Shown piece after piece: positions 10,781 through 34,110 of a stretch of 64,000 nucleotides of DNA (positions within the stretch are counted from its first letter, which is position 1; the number at the start of each line of letters is the position of its first letter). The notes beneath the pieces are model-generated. The model ran no database searches, was not told the DNA's origin, and saw only the letters and a list, made by a program, of their open reading frames with translations. The translations under genes were made by a program, and so were the position numbers. The stretch comes from Firmicutes bacterium ADurb.Bin300 (GTDB lineage Bacteria > Bacillota > Clostridia > Oscillospirales > Acutalibacteraceae), in contig MWBL01000002.1 of the NCBI GenBank assembly GCA_002069015.1, forward strand, positions 25,816 to 89,815. The letters are read 5' to 3'.

Positions 10781-11743
10781 TCAGTTGACAACGTTTCGTG
10801 GCGTGCCGTTAAGATATGCTTCGATGTTTCCGTTAAGCATATTAAGCAGTCTCATTCGGGTTTCATATCCCGCCCACGCGATATGAGGAGTCAGTACCGT
10901 GTTTGGAGAAAAGAGGAGAGGGTTCGTGACCAAGGGCGGTTCGGTGGACAAAACATCTGCGCCAAAGCCTGCAAGCTTACCGGATTTCAAAGCAAGCGCA
11001 ACCGCGTGCTCGTCAATAACCGCGCCGCGTGAAGTGTTAATAAGGTAAGCACGCGTTTTCATTTTATCAATAAATTCGGCATTTACGAGCTTGTTTGTCG
11101 CATCGCTCAAGGGACAGTGCAGAGAGAGAAAATCAGCTTCTTTTAGCACACGGTCAAGAGAGGTGAAAAGAGCATAGTCTACGCCGTCCTTTTTACCCGA
11201 GGGAGTAAAAGCAATAACATTCATCCCAAAGGTACTAGCAATTTTTGCCACCGTGCTGCCGATTTTTCCGAATCCTATTATGCCGAGAGTTTTGCCCGAA
11301 AGCTCGAAAACGGGATATTTTAAATAGCAGAAATCAGGGCAAGCGACCCAGTCCCCATTTTTTACGGAATCATTATAATCGGCAATTCTGTTTGAAAAGT
11401 GCAAAAGAAACGAAAACACTATCTGAGCTACCGCCTGTGTCGAGTACGCAGGTATATTTGACACCGGAATGTTTTTGCTCCTTAGGTAATCACAGTCAAC
11501 AACGTTATAGCCTGTCGAGAGAAGTGCGACAAAACGAAGGTTCGGCAGCATATCTATAGTAGCCCTGCTAAGGGGAACTTTATTCAATATTACAATTTCG
11601 GCATCCTTTGCCCTTTCAACAATAAGCTCGCCGGAAGTACGCTCATAGACAGTCAAATCGCAGGTGTCTTCAAGATAGCTCCAATTCAAGTCTCCCGGAT
11701 TTTCAGTATATCCGTCAAGGATGACGGTCTTGATTTTTTTCAT
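10781..11743 (-). CDS. D-isomer-specific 2-hydroxyacid dehydrogenase
   Basis: The 320-residue protein has both domains of the family. The NAD-binding motif GFGKIGS is at 157-163. The catalytic triad is Arg239 (NTSRGAV), Glu268 (DVLSTEP) and His287 (LTPHIAW). Members reduce 2-keto acids such as hydroxypyruvate or pyruvate with NADH. The sequence most resembles glycerate/hydroxypyruvate-type dehydrogenases rather than SerA, as it lacks an ACT domain. It is a single gene with AGGAGG-type sequence before the ATG. The exact substrate is not determined. Confidence 0.88.
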   Translation of the reverse strand: MKKIKTVILDGYTENPGDLNWSYLEDTCDLTVYERTSGELIVERAKDAEIVILNKVPLSRATIDMLPNLRFVALLSTGYNVVDCDYLRSKNIPVSNIPAYSTQAVAQIVFSFLLHFSNRIADYNDSVKNGDWVACPDFCYLKYPVFELSGKTLGIIGFGKIGSTVAKIASTFGMNVIAFTPSGKKDGVDYALFTSLDRVLKEADFLSLHCPLSDATNKLVNAEFIDKMKTRAYLINTSRGAVIDEHAVALALKSGKLAGFGADVLSTEPPLVTNPLLFSPNTVLTPHIAWAGYETRMRLLNMLNGNIEAYLNGTPRNVVN

Positions 11744-11838
11744 GTGTTTCCCCTCCTTAAATTATGAGTATAACATTATTACGGAAAATTTCCAGCTTTT
11801 TGCAAATTTTATTCTTTCCCGGATTAAACAGGTTTGTC

Positions 11839-11867
11839 TTGTATTGCAAAGGTGTAAATATTATGAT
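11839..11867 (+). promoter_or_regulatory. promoter of the glycerophosphodiesterase gene
   Basis: TTGTAT at 11839-11844 and TATGAT at 11862-11867 have a 17-base spacer and lie about 30 bases before the start codon. Confidence 0.5.
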
Positions 11868-11896
11868 ACAATACCAAAAGATAAGAGGTGATGACG

Positions 11897-12739
11897 ATGA
11901 AGAAAATAATCGCACCGATTATGACTGCCATTTCGGTAGTCGGACTTAGCGCGGGGTTGCTGACAAATTACATAGCAAATAAAAGCGAGTATTTAAAACC
12001 TAAGGATGGAATAGAGATTACGAAGGACTTAAAAATGATCGCCCATCGCGGTTTGTCTTCCTGTGCACCGGAAAACAGTCTTTCCGCTTACCGTCTTGCC
12101 GGTGAAGCGGGCTTTAAGTATGCGGAATGCGATATTCGTATGACGAAGGATAACGAGTGGGTTTTAACACATGACGCAAAGCTTAACCGGGTGACGGACG
12201 GAAAGGGACTCGTTTCGGAAAAAACACTTGAGGAAATAAAGGCTCTGCGTTATAAAAGAGGAGCGAATATAAAGCTTTATAAGGATGAGAAAATAGCTAC
12301 GATTCGCGAATTTTTGCAGGTCTGCACAGAATACGGCATTAGCCCGTTTATTGAGATAAAATCGGGCAATGAGATTGGTTTTGCTGATTTAATCGATATG
12401 CTCAAGGAGTTTAAGATGCTTAAAAAAGCCATAATAATCGATTATAATGTGAACAATCTTAAAGCTATCCGACAGCTCTGCCCCGAACTGCAAATGATGA
12501 TCTTATGCAAGGTTGTTTCACGAAAGGTTATAGCCATGGCGGAGGAAATCGGAAATTGCGGGATTGATGTTATGCATACGCTTATGATGCGTAACAAGGC
12601 TTTAGCCGATGTTGCCGAGAAAGGGCTTTCACTCAATTGCTGGACGGTAGACAGAATAGGAACGCTTAAAAAGGCGCATAAGCTCGGAGCCGCTTATGTT
12701 ACAACAAATTGTGTTAAGCCGCTGCAAAAGCAGGAATAG
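11897..12739 (+). CDS. glycerophosphodiester phosphodiesterase, membrane-anchored
   Basis: The 280-residue protein has an N-terminal hydrophobic anchor (residues 4-27), then the GDPD barrel. MIAHRGLSSCAPENS supplies His50, Arg51 and Glu59; AECDIRMTKD supplies acidic metal ligands; LTHDAKLNR supplies His92. It hydrolyses glycerophosphodiesters to glycerol-3-phosphate and an alcohol, probably outside the membrane. ATG 11897 is chosen over the in-frame GTG 11888 and ATG 11891 because AGAGGTG at 11884-11890 is then 6 bases away. It ends at a bidirectional terminator shared with the acyl carrier protein operon. Confidence 0.9.
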   Translation: MKKIIAPIMTAISVVGLSAGLLTNYIANKSEYLKPKDGIEITKDLKMIAHRGLSSCAPENSLSAYRLAGEAGFKYAECDIRMTKDNEWVLTHDAKLNRVTDGKGLVSEKTLEEIKALRYKRGANIKLYKDEKIATIREFLQVCTEYGISPFIEIKSGNEIGFADLIDMLKEFKMLKKAIIIDYNVNNLKAIRQLCPELQMMILCKVVSRKVIAMAEEIGNCGIDVMHTLMMRNKALADVAEKGLSLNCWTVDRIGTLKKAHKLGAAYVTTNCVKPLQKQE

Positions 12740-21751: not shown

Positions 21752-22075
21752 ATGAACAGTGAGCTTTTTGTATCAACGGCACCTAAAACAGCAACATTTC
21801 AAATGAGAATAAATCCCGAAATAAAGAGCGCGGCAGAGGATGTCTTTTCGCGCTGCGGGCTGACACTTACCGATGCAATCAACATTTTCATACAGCAGTC
21901 GCTGAACATCAAGGGTATGCCCCTCATCGTAACCCAAAACAGCCGTGAAGCGATTAAGGAACAGGCAATAGCTATGCTCCTCGGCGAACTCAAAAAAGGA
22001 GAGGACTCCGTTACACAGGACTCGGACTATATATCCGAAGCCGATATTCTTAAAGAGTTCAATGTAAAAATATGA
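21752..22075 (+). CDS. relB: RelB/DinJ-family antitoxin
   Basis: The 107-residue protein has the ribbon-helix-helix start TATFQMRINPEIKSAAEDVF and GLTLTDAINIFIQQSL, typical of RelB/DinJ antitoxins that bind their own promoter. The C-terminal part (EADILKEFN) is acidic and would wrap the toxin. It overlaps the toxin gene by 4 bases (ATGA), so the two are translationally coupled. The pair lies in the mobile island and probably stabilises it. Confidence 0.9.
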   Translation: MNSELFVSTAPKTATFQMRINPEIKSAAEDVFSRCGLTLTDAINIFIQQSLNIKGMPLIVTQNSREAIKEQAIAMLLGELKKGEDSVTQDSDYISEADILKEFNVKI

Positions 22076-22386
22076 AAATCGTATATGCGCCTCAGGCAAA
22101 GGCGGACTTGTCGGAAATACGCGGCTATATCCGTGATGAGCTTAAAAATCCGGCAGCAGCAAAGAACACGGTTGAAAAAATCCTTAAAACTTGTAATCTT
22201 CTTGCCGCAAACCCTAATGCGGGTTTTGCTCTTGAGGGTAAAATCGGACGGGAATCCGACTACCGCTGTCTTGTAAGCGGTAACTACATAGCTTTTTACC
22301 GCGTTGAAAACAGGGTTGAAATAATGAGAATTCTCGACGGCAGAACAGACCCTATGAGAGTCGTATTCGGCTCCGCGACAATCTGA
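22072..22386 (+). CDS. RelE/ParE-family toxin
   Basis: The 104-residue basic protein reads MKIVYAPQAKADLSEIRGYIRDEL, then VSGNYIAFYRVE and VEIMRILDGRTDPMRVVF. This is the compact RelE/ParE fold; the RILDGRTDP ending is common to ParE/RelE-type toxins. RelE members cut mRNA on the ribosome and ParE members poison gyrase; sequence alone does not decide which. It is preceded by its RelB-type antitoxin and followed by a strong terminator. Confidence 0.88.
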   Translation: MKIVYAPQAKADLSEIRGYIRDELKNPAAAKNTVEKILKTCNLLAANPNAGFALEGKIGRESDYRCLVSGNYIAFYRVENRVEIMRILDGRTDPMRVVFGSATI

Positions 22387-24416: not shown

Positions 24417-25412
24417 TTGAAGAAAGGAGAAAATGCCATTAAGCATAAGAACCGAACACGGGGTAAGACTGCCTCACGACAGCTTTTTGAGGAGGCAGAG
24501 GAGTTTTTCAAAAAGACTTATCCTAACAGACGAACCTGTAACACTTATGCAGACAGCTACCGAAAGTACATCAGGTTTTGCCGTGAACAGTTCGGCTGCA
24601 CTACTAAGGATGAGTGCGCTCAACACATCGGCGAGTATTCCGCCCATCTGCAAAAGTCGGGTTACTCCGCGAGTACGATACACACATACCTTGCAGCGGT
24701 TTGCGTTTACCACGGCGTTGATATGCGCGAGATTGAGAAGCCGAAGCGACACTCTTATGACTACAAGCGCGGCAGGAGCAACAACGGGCGAGTCAAACGC
24801 TCCGACAACGATTGCGCCAATCCTAAGTATGAGCGAACGGTTAGCTTTCAGAGTGCTGTCGGCATACGCCGTGCGGAGCTTTTGCGGCTCACAGGAGACG
24901 ATTTCGTTGTTGATGAAAGCGGTTATCCCTGTGTCCGTGTAAAGCGCGGTAAGGGCGGTAAAATGCAGCTACAGCGAATACTCCCTGAGAATGTGGAGCT
25001 TGTAAAGTCTTTTTTTGCTCAAGAACCGAAAAAAGGAAGGTTGTTTTTGCCGGAGGAACTGGTTAACAAAATTAACTATCACGCCCTCCGTGCAAAGAAC
25101 GCAAAGGACGCATACGCATACTACAACGAAAAACTCATCGGCGAGAACGGCGAAGCGTACCGAAAGCAGCTCACCGATGAAATACTCCGCAGATGGAACA
25201 AATATTGCATCGACGAGAAAACGGGCAGTCCTAAACCCATAAACCGCGCAAGACTTACGGGTACATACAAGCTGCGCGGCGGGTGCAGAGAAACAGCAAT
25301 AGAAAAAGGTTTACCAACGGAGTATGACTGCTTAGCGTTAATGGCTGTGTCTGTGTTCCACCTAAGCCATTGGCGACTTGACGTGACAGTTGCATCGTAC
25401 ATGACAGCGTAG
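24417..25412 (+). CDS. phage-integrase-like (tyrosine recombinase family) protein
   Basis: The 331-residue protein has an N-terminal SAM-like core-binding region (TCNTYADSYRKYIRFC, about 37-52, then STIHTYLAAVCVYHG) and a catalytic-like domain with AVGIRRAELLRLTGDDF and the C-terminal FHLSHWRLDVTVASYM. The first Arg and the terminal Tyr are present, but the central HxxR box is not evident, so activity is uncertain. The start is a TTG without a good ribosome site; no in-frame ATG is near. This family is common in Firmicutes mobile elements. It lies directly after the multi-hairpin region and before a small acidic protein. Confidence 0.7.
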   Translation: MKKGENAIKHKNRTRGKTASRQLFEEAEEFFKKTYPNRRTCNTYADSYRKYIRFCREQFGCTTKDECAQHIGEYSAHLQKSGYSASTIHTYLAAVCVYHGVDMREIEKPKRHSYDYKRGRSNNGRVKRSDNDCANPKYERTVSFQSAVGIRRAELLRLTGDDFVVDESGYPCVRVKRGKGGKMQLQRILPENVELVKSFFAQEPKKGRLFLPEELVNKINYHALRAKNAKDAYAYYNEKLIGENGEAYRKQLTDEILRRWNKYCIDEKTGSPKPINRARLTGTYKLRGGCRETAIEKGLPTEYDCLALMAVSVFHLSHWRLDVTVASYMTA

Positions 25413-28783: not shown

Positions 28784-29662
28784 TCAGCCCGCCAATATTT
28801 CGTCATAACGAGTGAGTGTGTCAAGTCCCCATTCGATAGCTAATTCGGCATCCTCTATGCCCTCGAATTCAACGCTTATAAAGTCATCATAGCCGTCTCT
28901 CAGAAGAGTTGACATGCATTGAAAAACAGGCACGCAGCCGTGACCGATAATAGCCCCTCGAAGATAGTTTCCCGCTCTTGTTTGAAAAAAGCCGTTTACA
29001 GGGGCGATATTGTCACCGCTTTTGAAGTGGAAATCCTTGGCGTGGACGTGGAAAACGTATTGAGAAAGCCTCCCGACTGCCTTAACGGGGTCCTCGTCCG
29101 CACAAAGAAAATTACCCATATCGAAAAGAAGTCCGAAGTTCTCGTGCCCGACACCGTTTACAATTTGTTCGACCCTTGTGCTTTCCTGACAGAAGAAACC
29201 GTGATTTTCTATCATCGTACGAATACCGAGCGTATGAGCATACTCGGATACCTCTTTACACCCTTGCACGATATAGGGGAGAGCCTCATTAAAGCCTCTT
29301 TGATTTCTGACTTCTTTTTTCCAGCCGCCCGTTGCATCATGGCGCATACCCGAAACACCGAGGGCTTTTGCGATATCAACCTCTTTTTTTAGTCTTTCGA
29401 TTTCTGACTCAAGAGTTCTGCCCACAGGATATAAAAAGTTTGCGCCTATTGTGTAGTTTACCGGTGTTATACCGACTCTTTCACACTCGTTACGAAGCTC
29501 ATCGGCATAGGAGGTCTTATCGACACTCACAGGAGGGTGAATTTCGGCAAATTCGATGCCTTCAAACCCTATTTTTTTGGCAAGGGAAATCAAATCCTTT
29601 TCGGTTTTATTACCGTTTTTTGTTAGCTGCGAAAAGCTGTAGCTGCTGACAGAAAATTTCAT
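28784..29662 (-). CDS. sugar phosphate isomerase/epimerase (AP endonuclease 2-like TIM barrel)
   Basis: The 292-residue protein has the metal-binding pattern of the family: GFEGIEFAEIHP, TMIENHGFF (Glu and His), LLFDMGNFLC, FHVHAKDFHF, and VEFEG near the end. These proteins isomerise or epimerise sugars such as inosose, tagatose or hydroxypyruvate. The substrate is not clear. It sits between the Rnf-like module and maf, with 50 bases to rnfA. Confidence 0.85.
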   Translation of the reverse strand: MKFSVSSYSFSQLTKNGNKTEKDLISLAKKIGFEGIEFAEIHPPVSVDKTSYADELRNECERVGITPVNYTIGANFLYPVGRTLESEIERLKKEVDIAKALGVSGMRHDATGGWKKEVRNQRGFNEALPYIVQGCKEVSEYAHTLGIRTMIENHGFFCQESTRVEQIVNGVGHENFGLLFDMGNFLCADEDPVKAVGRLSQYVFHVHAKDFHFKSGDNIAPVNGFFQTRAGNYLRGAIIGHGCVPVFQCMSTLLRDGYDDFISVEFEGIEDAELAIEWGLDTLTRYDEILAG

Positions 29663-29712: not shown

Positions 29713-30303
29713 CTAAATCATTAATACTCTGCCGGAAAGCGCATAAAGCCCCAGCGATATTAGCGCGGCATAAATGAAAACAGCGGGAGAGCCTTTAAAA
29801 GCGGGAGGTATTTCATCGTTTTCCCTGAGCCTTTTAACCCCCGCATTGATTAGTAAAACAGCTAAACAAAAGGCTGCGCCGGCACCCAAACCGTAACCTG
29901 CCGCCTTATAAATGTTAAAGCCAGACAGGTGATTTATCATCGGTATTGATAAAACAAGAGAGTTAAGAGCTGCCACCGAAAGTCTGCTTATTAGACCCTT
30001 ATCAGCCTTTAAGAGCATTGCAATTAAACAGGATGCCAAATAAAGCGCCGCTAAAACTCCAATATATATGAGATAATGGAAATGCTGATTTAACGCTTTT
30101 ATTTCAGGTATCAAGTCGAGTAAAACACAGATTATACTTAAGGATACCGAGAACATGGAAATAAAAGCGGAAAAAGCAAGCAGCCACTTCGGCTTTGCCG
30201 CCATACGGAAAGCTTCGCTTGAACCGAGCCCTCCGATAAGAACGGGATTTTGAACGGCAATAACAAAAAGAGCGGTTGAAGCTAAGCTGAAGGCGTAACT
30301 CAT
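29713..30303 (-). CDS. RnfA-like membrane protein lacking cluster cysteines
   Basis: The 196-residue protein has six membrane segments and aligns along its length with RnfA/RsxA, including the C-terminal PPAFKGSPAVFIYAALISLG, which matches the family's PAPFRGNA...LITAGLMSLA region. Classical RnfA has Cys in the LGLCPF loop and in the TNCAVLG loop; here they read LGSSEA (Ser29) and LNSLVL (Ser115). In Rnf/Nqr structures these cysteines, with two from RnfE, hold a [2Fe-2S] cluster in the membrane. That cluster cannot form in the usual way here. The gene overlaps the RnfE-like gene by 4 bases. Confidence 0.8.
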   Translation of the reverse strand: MSYAFSLASTALFVIAVQNPVLIGGLGSSEAFRMAAKPKWLLAFSAFISMFSVSLSIICVLLDLIPEIKALNQHFHYLIYIGVLAALYLASCLIAMLLKADKGLISRLSVAALNSLVLSIPMINHLSGFNIYKAAGYGLGAGAAFCLAVLLINAGVKRLRENDEIPPAFKGSPAVFIYAALISLGLYALSGRVLMI

Positions 30304-30956
30304 TTAGTGTCCTCCTCAATAATTATATCGGACACCATATCCTCTGTGTAATGAGGGTACAGTATGATTCTCAGTTTCCTTAATAATGCGGCAAGAAATC
30401 CGAGCGTTATAAGACCGCCGACAGGTAAAAGCATAATATTGAGCTTAAAAGCATGGTTTATCGGGAAATCGTAAAAAGTACCGCTGCCTGTAATTTCGCG
30501 AACTGCACCCGTCAAAAGTGCTACCGCCCCATATCCCGCTGCCGAAAAAAATGCGTGTATAAGAGCTTCCTTAAATTTGCTCTTAACATAGAATCTCTCA
30601 CAGTGAAGCGAAACGAGACTGCTTACAGTTATAAGGGGAACGGTAATTCCCAAAGCGGCGGCTTCATTGGGAACAATATCAGAGAAAAGAAAAGTCAAGG
30701 GTAAAAGGATTAAGGTGTTAATAGCCACATAAATTACGACCCTGATAAATCTCGGAACCTTTTTAAGGAGAAGAGAGGTTGCCAAGGCGTTTACAACAAG
30801 AACAAAAAAAGATGATGCCGCAACAAGTATGGCTGATTTAACGCTTGTCGAAACTGTTATAAGCGGGAACAAGCCGACAGCTTCTATAAGTGCGGGGTTT
30901 TTTACAATCAGCGTTTCGCGTATTATTTTTCGCAGTCTTGTTTTTTCGTCAATCAT
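30300..30956 (-). CDS. RnfE-like membrane protein lacking cluster cysteines
   Basis: The 218-residue protein matches RnfE/RsxE: KNPALIEAVGLFPLITVS corresponds to the NxALVQLLGLCPLLAVT loop and GAVREITGSGTFYD to the REIIGNGTLFD motif. The first cluster cysteine is Phe30. The second loop TVPLITVSSLVS has Ser113 in place of the Cys of TNC. One Cys remains at 119, six residues further on, outside the usual position. Six membrane segments are predicted. It overlaps both neighbours by 4 bases. Confidence 0.8.
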   Translation of the reverse strand: MIDEKTRLRKIIRETLIVKNPALIEAVGLFPLITVSTSVKSAILVAASSFFVLVVNALATSLLLKKVPRFIRVVIYVAINTLILLPLTFLFSDIVPNEAAALGITVPLITVSSLVSLHCERFYVKSKFKEALIHAFFSAAGYGAVALLTGAVREITGSGTFYDFPINHAFKLNIMLLPVGGLITLGFLAALLRKLRIILYPHYTEDMVSDIIIEEDTK

Positions 30957-31948
30957 AATTTTTCAGCCTCAAATTGCATATTTTTTGCTTTTTTTATCCC
31001 TGAACCAAACGTCTTCACGAACAGGGGAGAAAGTGCGTTCATTATCAAAATGGCGAAACAGCTTGAATCCTCATAAATGCCAACCCTTCGAAACAGCATT
31101 ACCATAATACCGGCAATCGCGCCGAATACAAAGCCCGGCAGAAGCTTATTAGGAGAGCAGTAAGGCATTGTTAAAAGAAAAAGTCCGCCGAAAAGAAGCA
31201 TTCCCGAGCAAAGCTCCATTATCACCGAATTAAAGCTTCCCGTCAAAATACGCGGGAAAAGAGCTGCAAATACGCCTGATGTAATAACATAACCCAAAAA
31301 TATGACGAATCTGTTCCTGTGCCTGACAAAAAAGTAAATGCTTGTTGCCAAAAGTACAAGCGCGCAAGTTGTTCCCATAGGGCCGGCATGCTCTCCTATA
31401 AGCGTTTTTGTTACCGATGTTATGCCTGGGTAAATGGAATTACCAAGGGAAAGAGAGGAGGCAAGAGAGGTTCCGCGGACAAATGCGGGATCGCTCATTG
31501 CGGTAACGGGATAGACAAGCGAGGGATAGGTGAAAACCGATGCCTCTGAGCAAACGCAGGCGAACGCAAGCGCACCTGCTGCAGGAACGAACGGGAGTTT
31601 GTCCCTGTTTCCGAATGGGAGAGAGCAGACAAAAAACGCGAAGGCAACGCAAGCCGCCAAAAAGGAAAAGGATACGCTTGCGGGAAGCATTAACACAATA
31701 AGAAGTCCTGTTACAGCAGCCGAGGAGGAAAAGAAAACGGGCTTTTTTTTCAGTAGGAGGTCACCGCAAAAGGAAAGTGCCAAGCTAAGCAGCACCGAGA
31801 AAAGGGCAAGCTTAACCGCTCTTTCTCCGTAATAATACCAAGCCATTAAAAGCGGAGTTGAGAGCATCAACAGGAGGTCTTTTTTATAGTCCGAAAAATT
31901 GGTATGACCGCAATTAATTTCCAATATATTGCAATTCCTTTCCAACAT
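30953..31948 (-). CDS. RnfD-like membrane protein
   Basis: The protein of about 331 residues has some ten membrane segments and the RnfD/NqrB layout. LLMLSTPLLMAWYYYG fits the first segment, and a conserved block near 170-215 reads VRGTSLASSLSLGNS then HAGPMGTTCALVLL. In RnfD a threonine in an SGAT motif carries covalent FMN; here the nearest candidate is VRGT, so flavinylation is uncertain. The start is unclear: TTG 31954, ATG 31948 and later TTG codons are possible and none has a strong ribosome site. It is first of the D-E-A operon; no rnfB, rnfC or rnfG is in the cluster. Confidence 0.75.
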   Translation of the reverse strand: MLERNCNILEINCGHTNFSDYKKDLLLMLSTPLLMAWYYYGERAVKLALFSVLLSLALSFCGDLLLKKKPVFFSSSAAVTGLLIVLMLPASVSFSFLAACVAFAFFVCSLPFGNRDKLPFVPAAGALAFACVCSEASVFTYPSLVYPVTAMSDPAFVRGTSLASSLSLGNSIYPGITSVTKTLIGEHAGPMGTTCALVLLATSIYFFVRHRNRFVIFLGYVITSGVFAALFPRILTGSFNSVIMELCSGMLLFGGLFLLTMPYCSPNKLLPGFVFGAIAGIMVMLFRRVGIYEDSSCFAILIMNALSPLFVKTFGSGIKKAKNMQFEAEKL

Positions 31949-32021
31949 TTCCAAAAAGTTATCATTGTGTACAGACTGTTTGCGTAATATGATAGTAATA
32001 GAGCCAAGGGGGTTTTAGCAA

Positions 32022-32633
32022 ATGAAAATCGAGCTGCATAATGAGGATAAGATAGTCGTACAATTAACGAGTATGGATCTCAAAACGCTCGATATTACAT
32101 ATGAGGATATGGACTACGCCAATATTGAGACGCGCCGTGTTATCTGGACTCTTCTTGATGAAGCACGCAGAGTATTGGGTAAGGATATCAGTACAACCGA
32201 GCGTATGCTTATTGAGGCGCTCCCGTCAGAGGACGGAGGGTGTGTACTTTATTTTACCGTGCTTCCGTCGTCAGGCTGTGAAAACAGCGGGAAAAGGCTT
32301 GTTATGAAGAAAGAGGCAGAGCCGATTTTGCTTTATACCGCAAACTGCGACAGCTTCATAGGGGCTATTGAAACGCTTAAAGGATGCAGGAACAAGCACA
32401 AAGGGTTTTCCAGTTATATTTTAGCCGGGGAATATTATACGGTTATTTACCCGAAACTTACGCAGAGCGAATACTTCATCACACACCTGTGCGAATTTTG
32501 CGATATTTATGAATCCGATATAAAAAAGATATCCGAAATCATAGAGTACGGGAAATATATCGAATCATTTTCTGAGAGAGGCGATAGCGGCTCCTCTGTC
32601 GCTTGCGCCGAAAATATAGCTTCCCGCAACTAA
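32022..32633 (+). CDS. mecA: MecA-like ClpC adaptor protein
   Basis: The 203-residue protein starts MKIELHNEDKIVVQLTSMDL and continues ISTTERMLIEALPSEDGGCVLYFT, the N-terminal substrate-binding domain of MecA/NegA. The C-terminal domain has ILLYTANCDSFIGAIETLKG and a terminal FCDIYESD. MecA proteins deliver substrates to the ClpCP protease. The ribosome site AAGGGGG precedes the ATG. The last 69 bases overlap the convergent rpe gene. It is divergent from the Rnf-like operon by about 70 bases. Confidence 0.8.
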   Translation: MKIELHNEDKIVVQLTSMDLKTLDITYEDMDYANIETRRVIWTLLDEARRVLGKDISTTERMLIEALPSEDGGCVLYFTVLPSSGCENSGKRLVMKKEAEPILLYTANCDSFIGAIETLKGCRNKHKGFSSYILAGEYYTVIYPKLTQSEYFITHLCEFCDIYESDIKKISEIIEYGKYIESFSERGDSGSSVACAENIASRN

Positions 32634-33215
32634 GACATTTGCTCCCGCTTGTATGCATAGCTTAGCAGTTTTGTCATTAATTCCGCCGTCAACCTGGATG
32701 TCAATATCAGGTTTTTTCATCCTGATTTCAGTAATTTTAGGTAAGACGGAGGCTTTGAAATCTTGACCTGCGAAACCGGGTTCTACCGTCATAACCAGCA
32801 CCATATCAATATCATCCAAAAAGGGAAATACAGACTTTGCGGGAGTATTGGGCTTAAGCGAAAAAGCGGCCTTTACCCCGCGGTCTTTTATTTTTTCTAT
32901 CGCTTTTTCGGCAGGACATGAACCGCCGAAGCATTCGGTGTGGACTGTAATTATGTCTGCCCCCGCGTCGGCAAAGTCATCTACAAATAAAAGGGGATTA
33001 GTAATCATTAAATGAACGTCAAAGCAAATATTCGTTACTTTCCTAAGACTCCTGACAACGGGCGCACCGATTGTTATATTCGGCACGAAATGACCGTCCA
33101 TAACATCGATGTGAAGCATATCCGCGCCGAGCGCTTCTATCTCACTAATTTCCTCTTTGAGCTTTGAATAGTCGCACGAAAGGAGAGAAGGGGATATTTT
33201 AATCGGTCTTTCCAT
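32565..33215 (-). CDS. rpe: ribulose-phosphate 3-epimerase
   Basis: The 216-residue TIM-barrel protein has ISPSLLSCDYSKL, LHIDVMDGHFVPNI, FDVHLMI, MTVEPGFAGQ and VDGGIN, all diagnostic for Rpe. It interconverts ribulose-5-P and xylulose-5-P in the pentose phosphate pathway. The second ATG at 33215 is preferred, as GGAGG is 6 bases away. It is the last gene of the rimP operon, overlaps ribF by 17 bases, and its 3' end runs 69 bases into the opposite mecA-like gene. Confidence 0.96.
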   Translation of the reverse strand: MERPIKISPSLLSCDYSKLKEEISEIEALGADMLHIDVMDGHFVPNITIGAPVVRSLRKVTNICFDVHLMITNPLLFVDDFADAGADIITVHTECFGGSCPAEKAIEKIKDRGVKAAFSLKPNTPAKSVFPFLDDIDMVLVMTVEPGFAGQDFKASVLPKITEIRMKKPDIDIQVDGGINDKTAKLCIQAGANVLVAGSYIFGASDRGAAIASLRK

Positions 33216-34110
33216 CATATTCCTCCCAAAGTCTTAAAGCTTTTTCCCTGTCTGAACGAATCCGGTTTTTTAACTCCTCAAGCGATGCGAATTTTATTTC
33301 GTCACGAAGTCTTTCGGTTAGGGCGACACGAATATTCTCGCCGTAAAGCGTTTCGTTTATGCCTATTATATGCGTTTCGCTGCCCAAAACACCATCACTT
33401 ACGGTAGGGCGCAGACCTATATTGGTAACAGAGGGATAAAACCTCTTTTTTACAAGAGCATAAGAAGCGTAAACACCGAATTTCGGTATGATAAAATCAT
33501 TAGGGAAATGCTGGTTTATCGTCGGAAATCCTAATTCTCTGCCGAGCTTTCTGCTCTCTTGCACCGGGAAATCATATGAAAAGTGTCTGCCCAGCATATT
33601 ACTCGCGCTTATAACGTTTCCTTTTTCAAGAGCGTCTCTTATTCTTGACGAGCTTACGGGCAGGTCCTCATACATTACGGCGCCGGCTACCTTTAAGCGT
33701 ATACCGTTGTCATCACAAAGCTGTTTAAGAGTCATTGTATCGCCTTCGGCGTTTTTGCCGAAATGGTAGTTAAAGCCGCACGAAATCTGGTTGATGCCCA
33801 ATTTGCGGGTGATAGAGACAATAAAATCCTCACAACTCAAATTCATCAGGGAGGGGAAGTCTACATAAACGGGGGTTATGCCCATTTCCTTCAGCAAGGC
33901 AATTTCATGGTTTTTTGTTATCAATCTTTTCGGTGCATTGCCGCAAAGGTAAAGCAAGGGATGCTCGTTGAACATAAGAATAAGGGGAACCTCTGAGCTC
34001 CTGCAATCAACGGCTTTTTCTATTACACTCCTGTGCCCCGTGTGCAGTCCGTCGAATGTACCAAGGGCTACAGAGGAGGCTTTTATTTTTTTTAGCGTAA
34101 AATTATCCAT
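33199..34110 (-). CDS. ribF: riboflavin kinase / FAD synthetase
   Basis: The 303-residue bifunctional protein has the nucleotidyltransferase start SVALGTFDGLHTGHRSVI and SSSRIRDAL, then the kinase domain with LGFPTINQ and YGVYASY-type sequence (FGVYASYALV, then TNIGLRPTV). It makes FMN and FAD from riboflavin. ATG 34110 is used: it is 2 bases after the truB stop and opens the conserved N-terminus. Placement after truB is the usual order in Gram-positives. Confidence 0.95.
   Translation of the reverse strand: MDNFTLKKIKASSVALGTFDGLHTGHRSVIEKAVDCRSSEVPLILMFNEHPLLYLCGNAPKRLITKNHEIALLKEMGITPVYVDFPSLMNLSCEDFIVSITRKLGINQISCGFNYHFGKNAEGDTMTLKQLCDDNGIRLKVAGAVMYEDLPVSSSRIRDALEKGNVISASNMLGRHFSYDFPVQESRKLGRELGFPTINQHFPNDFIIPKFGVYASYALVKKRFYPSVTNIGLRPTVSDGVLGSETHIIGINETLYGENIRVALTERLRDEIKFASLEELKNRIRSDREKALRLWEEYDGKTD

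Follow-up and report, generated by a model that had tools for sequence, protein, structure and literature searches.

A Divergent Rnf-Derived Membrane Set Lacking Cofactor Sites in Oscillospirales-like Clostridia

What becomes of an Rnf membrane core when the residues that hold its cofactors have been replaced? The question is raised by three adjacent genes for RnfD-, RnfE- and RnfA-like proteins in a 64,000-nucleotide stretch of DNA (the window) from Firmicutes bacterium ADurb.Bin300 (GenBank assembly GCA_002069015.1, contig MWBL01000002.1, positions 25,816 to 89,815 of the forward strand), which a first-pass annotation, made from the sequence alone, had described as a module without iron-sulfur ligands or soluble partners. 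Our analysis suggests, with a probability of roughly 0.55, that the set is a redox-stripped Rnf duplicate, kept by selection as a membrane complex that moves an ion or solute without electron transfer. The source is a 2.21-Mb metagenome-assembled genome (MAG) in 175 contigs, 95% complete (G000).

The Three-Gene Set

The genes lie on the minus strand and, according to open reading frame (ORF) analysis, overlap by 4 nt at both the D/E and the E/A joints.

30953..31948, minus strand: RnfD/NqrB-like membrane protein (PF03116, E=1.8e-44; AlphaFold2 (AF2) model, predicted local distance difference test (pLDDT) 91.2; fold matches; site census)
30300..30956, minus strand: RnfE/NqrD-like membrane protein, with Phe30 and Ser113 at ligand positions and a new Cys119 (PF02508, E=3.3e-30; alignment)
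29713..30303, minus strand: RnfA/NqrE-like membrane protein, with Ser29 and Ser115 at ligand positions and new Glu30 and Arg33 (PF02508, E=1.9e-14; AF2 pLDDT 92.2; alignment)

The D-like ORF (30953-31954) has an ATG start at 31948 and an alternative TTG start at 31954; the protein is 333 aa long and PF03116 is its sole Pfam domain match. All three proteins exceed the Pfam cut-offs, and their homology to Rnf stands; the earlier remark that A and E align well with RsxA and RsxE was generous, because the scores fall far under the NCBIfam rnfD, rnfE and rnfA cut-offs (84.9 bits against 213.4 for the E-like protein, 37.5 against 229.3 for the A-like protein). In Foldseek searches the best fold matches of the D-like AF2 model are RnfD structures (8ahx, 9eri and 7zc6), with a weak match to the urea transporter 3k3g (E=5e-3, TM 0.46), and those of the A-like model are RnfA structures (8ahx and 7zc6; 8ahx top, E=2.1e-5). 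The A-like model retains the Rnf fold and has helix breaks at the former ligand positions; in Rnf, helix kinks carry the cluster ligands, according to structural passages of PMC9588780.

Loss of the Iron-Sulfur Cluster Site

Aligned with the canonical RnfA and RnfE of the same genome, the window set retains none of the four cluster cysteines (0/4), and the replacements reported in the first-pass annotation were confirmed to the exact residue (Ser29 and Ser115 in A; Phe30 and Ser113 in E). Codon arithmetic places the altered sites as follows.

30205..30219, minus strand: A-like codons 29-33, Ser-Glu-Ala-Phe-Arg for canonical Cys-Pro-Phe-Leu-Gly, cluster site 1
29959..29961, minus strand: A-like codon 115, Ser at the second RnfA ligand Cys
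30867..30869, minus strand: E-like codon 30, Phe at the first RnfE ligand Cys
30600..30620, minus strand: E-like codons 113-119, with Ser113 for the second RnfE ligand Cys and with Cys119, which is specific to the clade

A search for further cysteine-less sets, which the same annotation had suggested, gave 111 related loci from Clostridia that we class as Oscillospirales-like on the basis of record titles. This number follows the removal of duplicates (L057, L062, L065, L071 and L116, duplicating L041, L040, L038, L044 and L037; L153, L154, L157 and L159, duplicating L066, L092, L091 and L074) and includes L048 and L049 as two loci, being two contigs of one genome. The scan of named-species genomes yielded 75 loci, with titles naming Oscillospiraceae, Ruminococcaceae, Clostridiaceae, Clostridiales, Clostridia, Bacillota and similar Candidatus genera, and one "uncultured bacterium." The final residue census omits proteins shorter than 150 aa, and where a contig ends early a gene may be missing from the locus; this leaves 102 A, 105 E and 110 D paralogs; the canonical rows comprise 31 A, 31 E and 27 D proteins, the atypical locus L051 being grouped with them (26 D proteins without it).

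Two of the four sites have lost cysteine throughout the paralogs: site 1 of A (Cys 0/102, Ser 82/102) and site 2 of E (Cys 0/105, Ser 77/105). At site 2 of A, Cys persists in 17 of 102 proteins. Canonical rows have Cys in 30-31 of 31 at each site, with L051 the lone exception at site 1 of A and site 2 of E. New residues follow the lost site-1 Cys of A directly (Pro to Glu in 71/102, Gly to Arg in 77/102), and six residues past site 2 of E, where canonical proteins have Ala (31/31; Cys 0/31), 73 of 105 paralogs have Cys. Judged from these alignments, the change in the window is not a one-off; the predicted loss of cofactor sites is clade-wide and extends to many gut bacteria related to Ruminococcus.

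The new Cys of E occurs together with a site-1 Cys in 58 of 105 proteins, the window's E not among them; the idea of a redox-active thiol pair in the window protein was dropped, as it has one of the two. The E-like genes of L041, L044, L061 and others encode long, charged, low-complexity C-terminal tails (proteins of, for example, 340, 414 and 497 aa, with a frame of 697 aa in L061), and in L047 and L048 a charged low-complexity stretch is N-terminal instead.

A profile built from nine RnfA-like sequences (E<=1e-25) places the paralog in at least 31 of 394 genomes of the order, the source genome included; this is a lower bound because four carriers (G042, G086, G103 and G118) escape the profile. 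Low-scoring PF02508 matches of the second kind, judged by score and then by sequence, were found in 14 of 60 relatives, and within the window's genus the paralog is rare (G010 and G011 of 21 genomes). A class-wide count with an RnfA-like profile (279 of 391 genomes) is not usable as an occurrence, because that search fails to tell the paralog from canonical RnfA: the canonical protein of the source genome itself reaches 124.5 bits. No clade member outside the order was found among the 27 of those 391 genomes that were re-examined.

Flavin and Ion-Site Residues in D

The D-like protein reads VRGTS in the stretch where the canonical RnfD of the same genome reads DAVTSAT, so the motif for covalent attachment of flavin mononucleotide (FMN) is absent, as had been proposed (VRGT for SGAT). 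The residues followed across the family were those with cofactor contacts in Clostridium tetanomorphum Rnf, taken from the relevant portions of PMC9588780. The FMN-contact Arg130 is Arg in 26/26 canonical D proteins versus 0/110 paralogs, Ser284 is Ser in 26/26 versus 1/110 (Cys in 69/110), and the FMN-link Thr153 is Thr in 23/26 versus 4/110. Asn124, a riboflavin contact, is retained in 11 of the 15 sets that include an RnfC-like gene versus 9 of the 95 that do not. The polar contacts to both FMN and riboflavin are absent from the window's D.

Asp248 of RnfD has been proposed as a Na+ site in a section of the same paper (PMC9588780); the aligned residue is Asp or Glu in 91 of 110 paralogs (14/15 with an RnfC-like gene, 77/95 without). 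Since the flavin contacts are lost and the acid at the putative ion site is mostly retained, the residue pattern in D points to the movement of an ion or solute rather than of electrons, with the window copy a marked exception at position 248.

Redox Partners

Contig C39 of G000 carries a canonical operon in the order C-D-G-E-A-B (rnfC at 11337-12674), in which the cluster cysteines and FMN motif are intact; the trio in the window is therefore a second, divergent set. The first-pass annotation would have been refuted by rnfB, rnfC and rnfG lying elsewhere in a genome with no other rnfADE; this is not what was found, as the partners on C39 come with an A, D and E of their own. The single FMN_bind match and the single PF04060 match of G000 both lie within the canonical operon, and the genome has one ApbE.

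Profile searches of the neighborhood agree that rnfB, rnfC and rnfG are absent beside the window set. Genome-wide absence, which the annotation had proposed to check, does not hold in G000, where the canonical operon supplies all three, and does hold for RnfB and RnfG in two other paralog carriers: neither G235 (99% complete, in 2 contigs) nor G042 (98%) has a canonical pair or any FMN_bind/RnfG or PF04060/RnfB match in the genome, and G042 has no ApbE. A third genome, G032, is 79% complete and lacks both a canonical pair and FMN_bind, with a single PF04060 match; ApbE is present in G235 and G032 although FMN_bind was not found there. Across the sequence fetched for the 111 loci, profiles for RnfG and RnfB found no such gene, and the same profiles detect both in L051; weak RnfB-profile matches at paralog loci come from the ferredoxin portions of three RnfC-like proteins.

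A divergent rnfC lies between D and the upstream gene rpe in 15 of 111 loci, the window being without it (upstream sequence was too short to judge in four loci). All 15 RnfC-like proteins retain the eight cysteines of two [4Fe-4S] clusters, and the glycine motif of the canonical row, which we assume serves FMN/NADH binding, is gone from them (n=15). Sets of this kind could in principle pass electrons from C to riboflavin in D.

Evolution and Selection

A tree built from 105 proteins of the A and E types (D was not used) joins the paralog A proteins in one clade (support 100/96) and the paralog E proteins in another (100/97), with L051 as the nearest outgroup of both. L051 (5387-10850, in G054) is a complete B-C-D-G-E-A operon in which the site-1 Cys of A is shifted by one and site 2 of E is Gly; it may be an intermediate with a cluster perhaps already altered. 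Sets with an RnfC-like gene stand at the base and in side branches of the tree, so RnfC was probably lost more than once.

A second tree was made by removing seven long-branched loci and adding four proteins of family f83, two each of E and A, which fall outside the paralog A and E clades. The family comes from a pair of genomes that lie outside the order; its operon reads C-D-G-E-A, with an FMN-type motif still present in D and both cysteines lost from A. The site-2 Cys of E is lost in L162, L161 has an aligned Cys there, and the site-1 Cys is present in both. It is a possible second case of cluster loss. The f83 loci are each a second rnf operon (L161:4016-8056 and L162:3600-8121), and after that of L162 comes a small lipoprotein-like gene whose ITGAT motif, recognized by eye, resembles a flavinylation motif.

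Between the window and L036, nonsynonymous (dN) and synonymous (dS) divergence are 0.27 and 1.6 for D (dN/dS about 0.17) and 0.23 and 2.5 for E (about 0.09); silent sites of A are saturated, and rpe gives dN 0.23 and dS 1.5. Within the limits of near-saturated dS, the set is under ordinary purifying selection.

Neighboring Genes

Three neighbors of the set in the window bear on its setting.

32565..33218, minus strand: rpe (ribulose-phosphate 3-epimerase), conserved upstream neighbor (homolog counts)
32022..32633, plus strand: MecA-like gene, frequent neighbor between rpe and D (PF05389, E=7.8e-07)
28784..29662, minus strand: xylose-isomerase-like TIM-barrel gene, local neighbor (PF01261)

The first of these, which we take from its sequence to be rpe, has a homolog at most 2.5 kb upstream of D in 99 of the 106 loci that have at least 1.8 kb of upstream sequence; a MecA-like homolog is near D in 69 of the same 106. 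On the 3′ side of A, a DUF4015-type gene (putative glycosyl hydrolase) is found in 69 of 96 loci, identified by a PF13200 match in three and by homology to those three in the remainder. In the window this slot is occupied by the isomerase and maf, with an integrase beyond, and the downstream border of the block has probably been rearranged. The integrase gene is of the phage type (27182-27862, PF00589); farther downstream are a second integrase-like ORF (24417-25412) and two small overlapping genes resembling a RelB/RelE-type toxin-antitoxin pair (21752-22386), both recognized by eye. The isomerase and maf had been offered as hints to function; they are not conserved neighbors, and the isomerase profile matched only the window and same-genus L036 among the loci profiled, so they are poor clues and were set aside.

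L045 has a LytR-CpsA-Psr gene and a transglutaminase-like gene after A in place of the DUF4015-type gene, and clusters of similar genes are met again farther downstream; a cell-envelope theme among the downstream neighbors is possible. In five loci a gene intervenes between D and E (L069:6962-7609, L074:6921-7703, L075:2410-3180, L078:5762-7261 and L090:6921-7733); these presumably encode secreted CAP/SCP-like lipoproteins.

Possible Function

The first-pass annotation proposed that the membrane core has been reused for something other than NADH-ferredoxin electron transfer, perhaps as a channel or small-molecule transporter. Reuse beyond canonical electron transfer is supported: cysteine loss runs through the clade, the FMN site has gone too, and G235 and G042 have the paralog with no RnfB or RnfG anywhere. 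The proposed channel or transporter role is drawn from the fold and from an ion-site acid that most of the family, though not the window copy, retains. At the level of aligned sequences, the ancestry shared with Rnf, the loss of cofactor sites, the single A and E clades and the conservation of the set are direct readings. The proteins probably form a complex, and transport by it would follow from the fold, the acid that most relatives keep and the polar residues newly gained.

The set probably goes back to an ancient duplication of the Rnf operon among Oscillospirales-like Clostridia, after which the redox parts of the copy were lost stepwise as the membrane core was retained. The cluster cysteines would have changed in the earliest step; RnfB and RnfG would then have been lost along with the covalent FMN site, the FMN/NADH motif of RnfC would have eroded, and finally RnfC itself would have gone along with the riboflavin contact. 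The product would be a D-E-A heterotrimer resembling the Rnf core that moves an ion or a small polar solute across the membrane. D, with a fold related in Rnf papers to ammonium and urea transporters, would supply the pathway, and the place between A and E that once housed the cluster (now Ser-Glu..Arg and Ser..Cys-Glu, near half-helix ends) would serve as a binding or gating site. In its most specific form, a three-subunit, Rnf-derived family of cofactor-free secondary transporters or channels, widespread in gut Oscillospirales and with a new substrate or ion site at the former cluster position, the proposal is plausible, at somewhat less than even odds.

Several observations weigh against transport by a redox-stripped complex. 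The window itself has Met at the Asp248 position, as does L127, and its closest relative L036 has Gln; no substrate-linked neighbor or other clue to a substrate was found. Site 1 of E still has Cys in 62 of 105 paralogs, the position aligned with the FMN-linked residue is Ser in 90 of 110, so that flavinylation may still occur there, and two of the four RnfC-like proteins scanned (L047 and L048) match Complex1_51K, an FMN-binding domain, above the cut-off. In the second tree, support was 99/93 for the A clade and fell to 88/95 for the E clade. The paralog is patchy (the 14 of 60 relatives above), and E is broken in L050 (internal stop) and L081 (split over two frames), so decay does occur. By our reading, canonical Rnf accompanies D-E-A-only sets in 30 of 30 sampled genomes, the source genome included, and the sets of G235 and G042, the two genomes without RnfB and RnfG, carry an RnfC-like gene (L132 and L047), so that they are not a direct test of D-E-A-only sets.

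Some of these points are what would be expected of a system that is still redox-active, in which D holds one or more noncovalent flavins and E a thiol, as a reduced, one-way transmembrane electron conduit comparable to the two-subunit Nqr/Rnf-like complexes. The RnfD of those complexes also lacks the conserved flavinylation Thr, as described in the relevant part of PMC10979944, and such a conduit would account for the clade-specific Cys of E (73/105), the two [4Fe-4S] motifs of the RnfC-like proteins in 15 of 111 loci and the Asn124 of 11 of the 15 accompanying D proteins. We consider it unlikely: Asn124 is found in just 9 of the 95 sets without an RnfC-like gene, the window belonging to those 95 sets, no RnfG- or RnfB-like gene stands beside any of them, and the two E cysteines coincide in the 58 proteins noted above, the window's excluded. 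The constant company of canonical Rnf (30 of 30) would also suit a trio that forms hybrid complexes with canonical RnfB, RnfC and RnfG, or shares these partners in trans, as an electron-dead regulatory or assembly variant. Canonical-strength PF02508 matches are, however, common in general (317 of 394 genomes in the order, and in the window's family 38 of 43), so this co-occurrence may mean little; A and E form clades of their own, the set has its own gene position beside rpe, and G235 and G042 keep the paralog without RnfB or RnfG, albeit with an RnfC-like gene. Hybrid or shared use by the D-E-A-only type is accordingly improbable in our estimate.

A metal, proton or anion site in place of the cluster, within a cation/proton antiporter or a phosphate- or carboxylate-type transporter, would fit the new signature at a half-helix end of the A model and the acid at the Asp248 position in 91 of 110 D proteins; with Met at that position in the window and no substrate-linked neighbor, so particular an assignment is a long shot. 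Least credible is a functionless leftover of an rnf duplication in decay: the patchy occurrence and the broken E genes are as this would predict, but the frames are mostly open, dN/dS is low, new motifs are conserved and the clade spans several families.

Relation to Known Systems

With Rnf (RnfABCDGE/RsxABCDGE) the set shares homologous D, E and A proteins, predicted folds (D and A were modeled) and the gene order D..E-A; unlike Rnf, the window set lacks the full complement of cluster cysteines, the covalent FMN motif and B, G and C, and scores far under the NCBIfam cut-offs. The membrane core is likewise homologous to that of the Na+-translocating NADH:quinone oxidoreductase (Na+-NQR; NqrBDE), which the evolutionary account in PMC4014512 derives from an rnf duplication with loss of rnfB. 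NQR retains its Fe site and flavins and gained NqrF, whereas the paralog clade lost both and has no redox partner beside it; the window set has neither an NqrC-type FMN_bind partner nor the Fe site. Two-subunit Nqr/Rnf-like complexes, as presented in sections of PMC8238504 and PMC10979944, consist of RnfD- and RnfG-type subunits only and keep the FMN_bind partner. They resemble our set in being reduced systems with an RnfD-like protein that lacks the conserved flavinylation Thr; in those accounts, RnfD is fused to an NAD-binding domain and accompanied by FMN_bind, whereas the present set retains A and E, and no such fusion or FMN_bind partner was found with it. Ammonium and urea transporters (Amt/UT) weakly share the fold of D (3k3g); A and E are extra subunits, and no Amt/UT sequence match was among the family search results listed for the set.

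No description of a cysteine-less Rnf core was recognized in searches of the open-licence PubMed Central literature, subscription papers lying outside their reach. The name "rnfDEA" was met there solely in PMC10781979, which, in the portion concerned, lists an rnfDEA (CG447_09840-830) and a separate rnfCDGEAB in Faecalibacterium duncaniae A2-165 and, in a figure legend, counts the former within NADH:ferredoxin oxidoreductase. Compared by gene content and order alone, that rnfDEA probably belongs to the same family as the window set. A Candidatus Gemmiger MAG, presumably related to Faecalibacterium, carries the paralog (L128).

Implications

The coupling of electron and ion transfer in Rnf and Nqr is treated as an open question in discussions within the review PMC12174285 and PMC9588780. 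Nature here provides a graded series: a complete operon, then sets that still have an RnfC-like gene, then D-E-A alone. It reveals what remains of the core once redox chemistry is gone, and it could be used to test whether D, together with A and E, is itself an ion pathway. For gut bacteria, probably including Faecalibacterium, an annotation of "RnfA/D/E" would not by itself signify an additional NADH:ferredoxin pump.

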